Notes: generated from the letters alone by a model not told the origin. Counted from the stretch's first letter, positions 30,117-37,511 are shown. The stretch is DNA of 64,000 nucleotides from Fervidobacterium nodosum Rt17-B1 (GCF_000017545.1 NC_009718.1:124001-188000), one strand, 5' to 3'. A program made the numbers and translations.

Positions 30117-30620
30117 ATGAAAAAATTATTTTTGAATACTACGTTTTGGCTTATCGTGGTAAGTTTAATTGCAATGTTTCTTTTATCTATATCCCTTTTT
30201 AACCTGAAAAGGGCATTTTTTGTTGTTAGTGATTTGAAGATTAATTTTGAAATCACGGAAACTCAAATAAAAGGAATAAATCTTATTATAAATGCTAATT
30301 TGAAAATCAATGCTCCAAGCCAAAATAAAAAAATTGCTATTGAGAAAGAAATTGAACTTGTACAATTAAAAGTTTACGATAGTGCATGGAATATTATAGG
30401 CTTGTGGAATGGTGAACCAGCAAAGATAGATGAAGATCTTTATAGCTTAAGCATTGTTTTCTCATCCGTTGAAATTTTCAATAAAAATTTAAAAAATATG
30501 AACACTGAAAGTTTTAAAATACAAGGCTTTGCAAAGGTAAGGATTAATTTGGGACGAGAAGGTTTAAGAATTAATGTACCGTTGGAAGCAGAGGTGTTAA
30601 ATCTTGGAAAAAATAAATGA
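30117..30620 (+). CDS. Membrane-anchored protein, function unknown
   Basis: A 167-residue protein with one transmembrane helix at about 10-28 and the remainder extracytoplasmic with alternating beta strands ([26 protein letters not shown] is beta-like in pattern). It resembles LEA14/WHy-like or FN3-like sandwich proteins in pattern only; no family is certain. The stop lies 17 bases past the ruvB TTG start, so both are translated from the same transcript. Start ATG after GAGGTTTAAGTC. Confidence 0.65.
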
Positions 30621-34145: not shown

Positions 34146-34175
34146 AAAATAAAAATATACATTGGGGTGAATAGG

Positions 34176-37100
34176 TTGAAGACTCTGACAAGATATGTTT
34201 TAAAGCAAGCATTGAAACCATTTTTTATGGGACTCGCTGGTTTTATTGTGTTTGTCAGCGTAGAATGGCTTTATCAAATTTCAGATTACATAATTAGAAA
34301 TAGAGTTGGAATAGATAAATTACTACTATTTGTAATGTACAACATACCTTACTTTACATTTCTCGGTATCCCTGTTGGGGTACTTTTTTCAATATTCTGG
34401 GTTATAAGCGATATGTACAACAACAGAGAAATTACTGCTTTATTGGTTCACGGTGTTTCGGCTAAGCATTTAGTTACACCGTTTATCATTCTTGCACTAA
34501 TCTTAGGCTTTTTCTCCTGGTTGCTTGGTGATTACGTTGTTCCAACCGCCAATTACAAATCTTCGCAGATACTCAACCAGTATATATTTCAATCACCTGA
34601 AAGTGTTGTAAAGACAAATATGCTTGTAGAATTAGAAAAAGATGTTTATTTTTATGTTAAAGAACACAACAAAGCTAAAGGTGAACTTTACGATGTAGTT
34701 TTATTTAGAAATGAAGAGGGAAACGAACAGATTCTTACAGCTAAAAAAGTTATAAAAAGGAAAGACGGTTGGTTTTTATTAGACGGATCGATGTATATAG
34801 TGGAGTTGAAAACAGGATTTCTCAAATTAGACATGCAATTTAAAGAAATGAAATTAGACGTTGCTGGTGAAATCGAAGAAATGCTAAGGGCTTACAAAAC
34901 TACAAGGGATAAAACTTCAAAAGAGCTAAGAGAACAACTTCAAACGTACAAGAAATTAGGTATAAATGCTTCGAATTTGATTGTTGAACTTAACCAACGT
35001 TATGCAAATGCTCTAGGAGCTTTGGTTATAGTTTTGATAGGTCTTCCTGTTTCATTGTTGTTTGGGTTTATTAGCAGGTCTTGGAGCATTATCCTTACAT
35101 TTCTTATAATTGTACTATACCAAGGTTCGGGTGCATGGTTGTCTGGTATGGGAAAAGAAGGATTAATGGATCCGATGCTTGCAACGTGGCTTCCGAACAT
35201 TGTATTTTCCGTTGTTGGGTTCATTATGTATATTTTTGTCGATACTCCAATAGCTTTTAAAGTGAGAGAGTTTTTGTCAAGGTTGTTCTTATTCATATTG
35301 ATAATAGTTGTTTTTTTCGGTTTTACTAATTCCATTGGCTTTTCAGAAAATCTTGTAAAGGTCAACTCTCTGGATGCTTATTTTTCAGAAGAAGTTGTTA
35401 GATTTAAAGGAGAGGTTTCTTTTTCTTGGGATAATTATAAACTTCTTTGTGATGAAGCAACAGCGACAATTGTTGATGGTAAGATAAAAGCAATTCAAGC
35501 TACTGGTGAAATAAAATTTTACGATAAAGATATGACGTACACTGCCAGAAGTTTTAAATATGATTTTGAAAGTGAAAGGGCGTTGATAGTCAAAGCTAAA
35601 GTTGTTTACAATTATAACTATAACAACAAAAAAATCCCAGTTTATGTTTACAGTTCTGAAATAAATTATGAAGCTACATCAACATTGACCCAACTTGAAG
35701 ACTCTTATTTAACCACTTGTAATTTGGAAGAACCGCATTATATGATTCTTTCTTCCGATGTATATGTATTCGAAAATAAGTACATAGTTGCTAAAAATTC
35801 GTTTTTAGTAATTTTGGGTGCTCCCATTTTCCTGTATCCTCTTTATATAATGAACCTTGATGGTGTTCCTCCATACTCTTTTTCAATTACATTCGGAAAT
35901 ACTTTAGTTGTATCTCAGTCATTCAATTTTGCTGTAAATAAATGGGCAGTAAAATTATCATTTGGAACAGAAGGAGTTGGAATTGAAACTCAGAACACGC
36001 AGAGTAAATCAGATAAAATATCTTACAATCAATCTAAGGATAGTTTTGAACTTATGCTATCACCTTTTATTTACAGGTATTCAAAGGGGAATATTTATTA
36101 TAAATACGATGGACCTATATACGTTGAGGGTACGTACATCAATGATAATAATTTCTATCACAAACTTGGTTTTAACTATCAAAATCAAAATGTCTATTTT
36201 AGACCTTATATTATGTACGATAAAAAACTAACCGATACTTTAATTGTTTTAAATGGTGGAATAAAGAACTTATCTTTTGATATTCTTCCAGAAAATAGCT
36301 TGAAAGTTAATTCCGTTGACAGTACTTATAGAATGCAATACGACGGATACTTATTCGAACCAGAAAAAGATTGGAAAACTTCTAATCAAACTATTTACAA
36401 CATTGGATTATCAAACAAGGTTATAAATTATAATATTTCGGCAAATGGCTCAGTGTACAATAACAGCGAAAATAGAAATGTTGTTTACACATACCAATTG
36501 CCTTGGAATTGGAAGTTGGATAATTTTTCACTAAATTTCAACTATACTTTCACGCTGAAAAATGTGTACAATTATTCTAATAACACTTCAAAGCAATCAT
36601 TGGGTGCATCTGATAAGTATAACGTTACAGGAATGTACAATATTGGTCCACTTAAAACTTCGCTTTCTTGGGAGCAAGTTTACAATTACCTCGATGAACC
36701 AACATCTACAGATAGGAATTTATTAAAGTTTACACTTGAAGCTAACTCATCAAATCTTACACTTTCGACGTCAAGAAGTATCGATTTGATAAAAAATAAT
36801 CAGCTACCTGATACTTTGACAGTAAAGTACAACCAAACAATTGGAGATTTCAATATTGGTGGTTCTCTATCCACAACGTATGATAACACTTTGCGCAAAC
36901 TTGGTAATGAGAACATCACACTTGAAATGCGTTACACCCCATTCTCATTAAGGTACGCTTTGCAATTTATTATTAGACCGGGGATGTCTTTAGACAATTA
37001 TGTACATGTCATAAATTATGGTAATCTAAATGCTACCATATACCAACAAAACGATTATATAAAAAACATTGTTGCTTCAGGTTCTTTTAATCTTTTTGAT

Positions 37101-37511
37101 TATACAGCAATGCTGAGAGCAAATTACAATAAAACTTCAAAAGAAGCTACTCCGACGTGGAATTTTACATATGCAATGGAAAAAAAGAACGAAAAATATG
37201 TTCTATCTTATAATACAGATAATAAAAATACCTATAAATTAGAAATGGACTTAAAGAATCTTGACCCAAATATCAAACTCAGCGTTACATTTAATCCCTC
37301 AACAATGTCATTTGATTATTTCTCATTCAACTTTGATAAATCATTGCATTGTTGGAGATTAAATGCTGGAATTGATTTTAAAAATAGAAATTCTCCGAAC
37401 ATTTTTGATAATATTGATAAGATTTATTTTAAATTTTACTTGACCGATATACCAGATAAATTTTTCCAATTTGATCCGAAGAATGGTCAGTTTAATTTTA
37501 ATGGGATGTGA
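34176..37511 (+). CDS. LptF/LptG-type permease fused to an LptD-like outer-membrane assembly domain
   Basis: A single frame of about 1111 residues. Residues 1-355 have the LptF/G layout: three N-terminal transmembrane helices, a periplasmic beta-jellyroll (about 125-265) and three C-terminal helices. A seventh hydrophobic segment at about 369-388 follows (LFLFILIIVVFFGF), flanked by Arg and Glu residues like a signal sequence. Residues 395-560 resemble OstA/LptD beta-jellyroll, including LTTCNLEEPHYMI, a motif like the YTTC...P.Y segment of LptD, and GAPIFLYPLYIMNL. The last 550 residues alternate polar and hydrophobic strands as in a beta-barrel, with many Tyr/Asn. The TTG at 34176 follows GGGGTGA. 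A fusion of inner-membrane permease and outer-membrane translocon is highly unusual; see findings. Confidence 0.82.
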   Translation: MKTLTRYVLKQALKPFFMGLAGFIVFVSVEWLYQISDYIIRNRVGIDKLLLFVMYNIPYFTFLGIPVGVLFSIFWVISDMYNNREITALLVHGVSAKHLVTPFIILALILGFFSWLLGDYVVPTANYKSSQILNQYIFQSPESVVKTNMLVELEKDVYFYVKEHNKAKGELYDVVLFRNEEGNEQILTAKKVIKRKDGWFLLDGSMYIVELKTGFLKLDMQFKEMKLDVAGEIEEMLRAYKTTRDKTSKELREQLQTYKKLGINASNLIVELNQRYANALGALVIVLIGLPVSLLFGFISRSWSIILTFLIIVLYQGSGAWLSGMGKEGLMDPMLATWLPNIVFSVVGFIMYIFVDTPIAFKVREFLSRLFLFILIIVVFFGFTNSIGFSENLVKVNSLDAYFSEEVVRFKGEVSFSWDNYKLLCDEATATIVDGKIKAIQATGEIKFYDKDMTYTARSFKYDFESERALIVKAKVVYNYNYNNKKIPVYVYSSEINYEATSTLTQLEDSYLTTCNLEEPHYMILSSDVYVFENKYIVAKNSFLVILGAPIFLYPLYIMNLDGVPPYSFSITFGNTLVVSQSFNFAVNKWAVKLSFGTEGVGIETQNTQSKSDKISYNQSKDSFELMLSPFIYRYSKGNIYYKYDGPIYVEGTYINDNNFYHKLGFNYQNQNVYFRPYIMYDKKLTDTLIVLNGGIKNLSFDILPENSLKVNSVDSTYRMQYDGYLFEPEKDWKTSNQTIYNIGLSNKVINYNISANGSVYNNSENRNVVYTYQLPWNWKLDNFSLNFNYTFTLKNVYNYSNNTSKQSLGASDKYNVTGMYNIGPLKTSLSWEQVYNYLDEPTSTDRNLLKFTLEANSSNLTLSTSRSIDLIKNNQLPDTLTVKYNQTIGDFNIGGSLSTTYDNTLRKLGNENITLEMRYTPFSLRYALQFIIRPGMSLDNYVHVINYGNLNATIYQQNDYIKNIVASGSFNLFDYTAMLRANYNKTSKEATPTWNFTYAMEKKNEKYVLSYNTDNKNTYKLEMDLKNLDPNIKLSVTFNPSTMSFDYFSFNFDKSLHCWRLNAGIDFKNRNSPNIFDNIDKIYFKFYLTDIPDKFFQFDPKNGQFNFNGM

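Follow-up and report, generated by a model that had tools for sequence, protein, structure and literature searches.

In the 64,000-nucleotide window analyzed here, which is part of the complete 1,948,941-bp genome of Fervidobacterium nodosum Rt17-B1, a single frame on the + strand is open from a GTG at 34167 to a stop codon ending at 37511. The TTG at 34176 is the likelier start, because a Shine-Dalgarno-like GGGGTGA, read directly from the sequence, lies 5 nt before it and the homologs start there too. From this TTG the gene has 1111 codons, in agreement with the single frame (34176-37511) that a sequence-only reading of the window had proposed. Residue numbers are counted from GTG 34167; 3 must be subtracted for the TTG start. 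Elsewhere in the window (30117-30620), upstream of ruvB, a protein of 167 aa whose N-terminus forms a hydrophobic helix has no Pfam match. The features of the locus are as follows.

34164..34170, + strand: Shine-Dalgarno-like GGGGTGA
34176..37511, + strand: lptFG-lptD fusion gene with conserved architecture (TTG start; stop TGA at 37509-37511)
34191..35231, + strand: LptF/LptG permease domain (residues 9-355)
34608..34856, + strand: periplasmic beta-jellyroll of the permease (residues 148-230)
35262..35345, + strand: hydrophobic segment 7, a proposed internal signal peptide (residues 366-393)
35345..35346, + strand: predicted cleavage by signal peptidase I, after residue 393 (GFS/EN)
35358..35714, + strand: putative LptA/LptD_N-type beta-taco (residues ~398-516)
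35712..35741, + strand: LptD signature TTC-x4-PHY (residues 516-525)
35874..37508, + strand: predicted LptD-like outer-membrane barrel (residues 570-1114)
37347..37355, + strand: HCW motif with C1062, near the C-terminus

The two halves of the protein

The permease half matches PF03739 along its full length (E=3.5e-68; 230.7 bits vs. a cut-off of 27.9; profile positions 1-351 of 353), with six predicted transmembrane helices. The AlphaFold2 model places the strands of a jellyroll at residues 148-230, and the fold matches of this half in the PDB include 6mit_G. Thus, the six helices and the LptF/LptG-type jellyroll that the sequence-only reading had assigned to the N-terminus were recovered by profile, model and fold comparison. 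The NCBIfam equivalog models for LptF and LptG were both missed (139.2 vs. 230 and 119.2 vs. 240 bits); judged by these scores, the permease half is a member of the LptF/LptG family but neither LptF nor LptG proper. E88, between the second and third transmembrane helices, is invariant in the 37-member alignment of the family. The permeases of LptB2FG (e.g., PDB 6mit and 9doh) share with this half the six helices, the periplasmic jellyroll, PF03739 and the presence of LptB in the genome. In contrast to them, the present permease comes from one gene, scores below the equivalog cut-offs and has an LptD attached at its C-terminus. Since the genome encodes no second PF03739-type permease, the permease presumably forms a homodimer.

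The 720 residues after the hydrophobic segment are almost purely beta, and the AlphaFold2 model has about 30 strands after the TTC-x4-PHY motif (mean pLDDT, 84 for the whole protein and 90 for the C-terminal half alone). When the C-terminal half was compared with the PDB by Foldseek, the best 15 matches were all LptD (E from 4e-19 to 1.4e-13), and the first non-LptD match, another barrel, was about seven orders of magnitude weaker (E=2.5e-6). The search with the whole protein gave LptD first, then LptG/LptF. Both the jellyroll and the barrel for which an AlphaFold check had been suggested are present in the model, although the TM-scores to LptD are low (0.25-0.38) despite the strong E-values, and thus the barrel shape is not superposable on LptD in detail.

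A sequence profile of the C-terminal half retrieved LptA and LptD chains among the PDB sequences, including LptD 7omm (E=2.7e-5). The alignment with this LptD, from N. gonorrhoeae, runs through the taco into 'TC...Y ... VA.......G.P.FY.P' and covers the Cys signature, where TTC-x4-PHY aligns to 'FNTCSAGDAGWY'. The Pfam model PF03968 (LptD_N) is sub-threshold in the window protein (E=0.0048) and reaches E<0.01 in 15 of 37 family members (best, 2e-8). PF04453, the Pfam LptD model, was not detected in the Thermotogota members when the same profile alignment was used, and a weak match to Porin_4 (E=6.9e-4) was seen in the C-terminal half. C518 and Y525 of the signature are invariant (C518, 37/37). 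Near the C-terminus, C1062 of the HCW motif is a Cys in most of the family and is replaced by His or Lys in some lineages (L054, L045, L056, L071; L038, L060, L062, L063). Since the first Cys is invariant while the C-terminal Cys is lost in places, a disulfide would not be the only role of the first. The final residue is Phe in 22 members and Met in 14; a terminal Phe is common among BAM substrates. Two genomes, G045 and G057 (L051 and L048), differ from all others by a Pro/Thr-rich spacer (~45 residues) that separates the hydrophobic segment from the taco.

LptD proteins (e.g., PDB 5iv9 and 7omm) have in common with the C-terminal half an N-terminal taco, a Cys signature before the barrel, a large barrel and a CW-type motif near the C-terminus. 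They differ in that the present domain has neither its own gene nor its own signal peptide but is fused behind a permease, is missed by PF04453 in the Thermotogota members, has a single C-terminal Cys that some lineages have lost, and occurs without LpxC. The profile and the model support the assignment of the C-terminal half as a putative LptD-type beta-taco and barrel, and the claim of an LptD-like domain with a TTC...P.Y signature and some 550 strand-rich residues is supported by the fold matches, the profile and conservation in two phyla.

Conservation of the fusion and its partner genes

Of 103 Thermotogota genomes, 100 contain PF03739, and the frame is at least 900 aa long in 89 of the 100. 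Of the 91 Candidatus Bipolaricaulota genomes that encode the permease, 76 have the long frame. When 84,980 species were scanned with two peptide patterns only, matches were obtained in these two phyla. Eight of the 11 Thermotogota genomes without the long frame (all but G053, G080 and G083) were examined: two have real splits (G101 and G051), one has an in-frame stop, three reach a contig end (G044, G038 and G071) and two are frame-shifted (G027 and G089). The stop in G050 (L047) is a lone TAA within the barrel part of a gene that is otherwise intact to its end, and it may reflect a sequencing error, a pseudogene or readthrough. Our results show that an LptF/G permease fused in one frame to an LptD-like domain, as proposed from the window alone, is the rule in two phyla. 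Misassembly or chance read-through was rejected as an explanation because the same architecture recurs at these frequencies in independent assemblies.

Some relatives have the two halves as separate genes. In Thermotogae UR.bin268, the permease ends with KRLLG, and a second gene, 7 bases on, opens with MHLRYKSFSPVLFIISLFFIILSGTKVFSA/TA. G051 has a pair of permease genes, with LptD encoded at a distant locus. Bipolaricaulota G151 and G152 carry lptFG and lptD as unfused neighbours; two Bipolaricaulota genomes (L183:3788-9588 and L184:115-5209) have an unfused operon of the order lptC/A-like, lptB, lptFG, lptD. The split LptD genes of UR.bin268, G151/G152 and G051 start at the position of the joint and have their own hydrophobic leader. 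In a permease tree, used for this question only since three Bipolaricaulota rows (L153, L157 and L166) were badly extracted and have long branches, the split genes are nested inside fused groups. Because of this nesting, the sequences are most simply explained by three secondary fissions, after each of which the hydrophobic segment would have remained with LptD as its leader. Separate genes for the two halves in homologs had been named beforehand as the observation that would speak against the fusion; what we found are rare secondary splits among fused genes. One Thermotogota genome (G051/G107; L127:5989-8331 and L181:2753-5302) has two permeases in tandem and an LptD, all encoded separately, and also a 621-aa protein in which LptA-type domains are repeated; the arrangement looks like a secondary split with duplication.

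The possibility that the C-terminal half is another outer-membrane barrel, such as a porin, could draw on the Porin_4 match, the sub-threshold LptD_N score and the low TM-scores. However, the top fold matches are all LptD, with the large gap in E-value to the next barrel, and the profile match to LptD includes the Cys signature. An artefact of assembly or annotation is likewise at odds with independent assemblies from two phyla that show the identical architecture, and we regard either explanation as extremely improbable.

Partner genes are encoded elsewhere in the genome. In 30 of 31 genomes, LptB exceeded its curated cut-off; lptB of F. nodosum lies outside the window (C1:96909-97607; TIGR04406, 300.7 bits vs. 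a cut-off of 240). It is directly downstream of a gene for an OmpH/Skp-type outer-membrane chaperone (L179:900-2108). A secreted LptA-like protein of the OstA type (224 aa; C1:292950-293624, L178:551-1225; PF03968, E=9e-8) is the probable periplasmic bridge, judging from its domain, and a separate LptA-like protein was found in nearly all genomes surveyed. The N-terminus of the 224-aa LptA/LptC-like protein is Thr/Ser-rich. BamA is present in the genome. A separate LptC was not found in the F. nodosum genome, where the LptC model matches only the LptA-like protein.

LpxC, the committing step of lipid A synthesis, is absent in 61 of 61 Thermotogota genomes tested, whereas E. coli and three other controls were positive. 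Thus, the cargo would not be lipid A-based LPS. By analogy with Borrelia burgdorferi, a diderm without LPS in which an Lpt machine is proposed to transport glycolipid (PMC10353723), it is probably a non-LPS glycolipid; unlike the fusion found here, LptA, B, C, D, F and G of Borrelia are encoded by separate genes (PMC10353723). Diderm Firmicutes (Negativicutes and Halanaerobiales; PMC5007114) also have a single LptF/G homologue per genome, LptB and OstA-domain proteins. However, no LptD was found in them, LPS genes are present and no fusion was reported (PMC5007114).

The joint and the fate of the polypeptide

In the topology of LptF/G, with six transmembrane helices, the C-terminus is in the cytoplasm; thus, the seventh hydrophobic segment must carry the chain outward. 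The signal-like segment that had been noticed between the two halves is drawn by AlphaFold2 as one continuous helix (residues 361-385), and residues 385-395 are the only stretch of the whole protein with pLDDT below 50. In an unsupervised alignment of 37 members, column 372 is basic in 95% of the homologs and is followed by a hydrophobic stretch. Column 391 (position -3) is A, V, S, T, G, I, L or C in 92% and never charged, column 392 is large or aromatic (F, H, W or Y in 89%), and column 393 (position -1) is A in 11, S in 12 and G in 10 members (33/37), with no dominant residue; P, T or C occupies the -1 position in a few homologs. Among the 679 well-filled columns past residue 360, only 393 and 529 have at least 85% A/G/S without a dominant residue. 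The site of the window protein itself, GFS/EN, is weak-looking, and its cut position is predicted from column 393. In Bipolaricaulota, the joint is often AWA/QEPPP, and a small-x-A motif is present in 37 of 38. An n-, h- and c-region with the -3/-1 rule known for signal peptidase I is therefore seen at a conserved place, both in the alignment columns and in the Bipolaricaulota motif.

Simpler measures did not discriminate. The -3/-1 motif was present in 45 of 45 sequences vs. 38.1 of 45 expected from shuffled c-regions, and the hydrophobic run of segment 7 (median, 13) is not shorter than those of true transmembrane helices. Since motif counting is too permissive, the argument for cleavage rests on column conservation and the natural splits. 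We favour the view that segment 7 would behave as an internal signal peptide. Cleavage of a bacterial polyprotein at an internal signal peptide has precedents, e.g., cytochrome b/c1 (fbcH) of Bradyrhizobium, in which an exported protein is likewise fused in frame behind a multispanning inner-membrane protein and the joint resembles a signal peptide. In fbcH, however, the proteins are other ones and the second product remains in the inner membrane.

We propose that the gene encodes a polyprotein that signal peptidase I splits into a permease and an LptD inserted by BAM, together forming part of an exporter of a non-LPS (glyco)lipid, and we give this reading a probability of roughly two in three. 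The first ~360 residues would be the transmembrane permease; as a homodimer powered by LptB (LptB2), the product of a separate gene, it would lift the lipid out of the inner membrane. After the sixth helix, the chain would be in the cytoplasm, and segment 7 would then act as a Sec signal peptide. Signal peptidase I would cut after residue ~393 and free the mature LptD, and BAM would insert it into the outer membrane. The separate LptA-like protein would carry the lipid across to LptD, which would deliver it to the outer leaflet of the toga.

Two mechanisms, a built-in bridge and a polyprotein with an internal signal sequence, had been left side by side in the sequence-only reading; the constraint at the joint, the Bipolaricaulota sites and the splits at the joint favour the polyprotein, and the bridge is the less likely of the two. 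For the bridge, segment 7 would be a permanent anchor in the role of the LptC helix, and one chain would run from the permease through the taco to the barrel, tying the two membranes together at export sites. The frame is in phase in nearly all genomes of the two phyla, no anchored LptC separate from the LptA-like protein was seen, and the single helix drawn by AlphaFold2 is compatible with such an anchor; a parallel is the long MlaD bridge predicted to span the envelope of Veillonella (PMC10665443). However, an anchor would not account for the signal-peptidase-like constraint at residues 391-393, for natural splits at the same spot or for a separate LptA-like protein in nearly all genomes. 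Furthermore, one beta-taco of ~120 residues, probably a few nm long, seems too short, and the outer membrane is detached at the poles in both phyla (PMC10665443). We therefore consider an uncut bridge unlikely. If the chain did stay uncut, pump, periplasmic slide and gate would be one molecule, the membranes would be covalently bridged at each export site and a dimeric permease would feed two barrels, a picture that we find slightly more doubtful still.

The LptD half could also arise, besides or instead of the long product, from initiation inside the gene. GTG 35262 and TTG 35274 are in frame just before segment 7, as had been pointed out from the sequence, and in-frame start codons are found just ahead of the segment in 29 of 37 genes. 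The use of these codons as starts was not supported: no Shine-Dalgarno sequence precedes GTG 35262 or TTG 35274 in the window gene. Among the 37 genes, only 6 combine a start codon with a Shine-Dalgarno sequence at this place, compared with a mean of 3.4 (range, 0-13) in background windows and 22 of 37 at the true starts. Furthermore, reinitiation would work without a shared frame, yet 89 of 100 genomes preserve it. Internal initiation, at these codons or their equivalents in relatives, is thus very unlikely, and the polyprotein cut by signal peptidase I remains our preferred reading.

Implications for the toga

In a survey of 903 genomes, Thermotogae lacked nearly all of the outer-membrane genes examined except bamA (PMC8871954), and they have been reported to lack the coding capacity for LPS (PMC5007114). 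In both Thermotogota and Bipolaricaulota, the outer membrane is detached at the cell poles (PMC10665443). The LptF/G-LptD fusion is present in both phyla, and in Thermotogota it is accompanied by LptB and an LptA-like protein but not by LpxC; judged from these genes, a phylum described as missing most Lpt genes has a nearly complete set of Lpt parts. The parts are known Lpt parts. We found no description of their fusion in one frame across two phyla in the open-access literature searched; subscription papers and preprints were outside this search, and an earlier description is possible.

Because LptD is concealed behind the permease, gene surveys of diderm ancestry may have overlooked Lpt. The gene content described above also implies that Lpt is not tied to lipid A and that the export of a surface lipid may underlie the detached 'toga' outer membrane. 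The lipid that covers the toga becomes a testable question.
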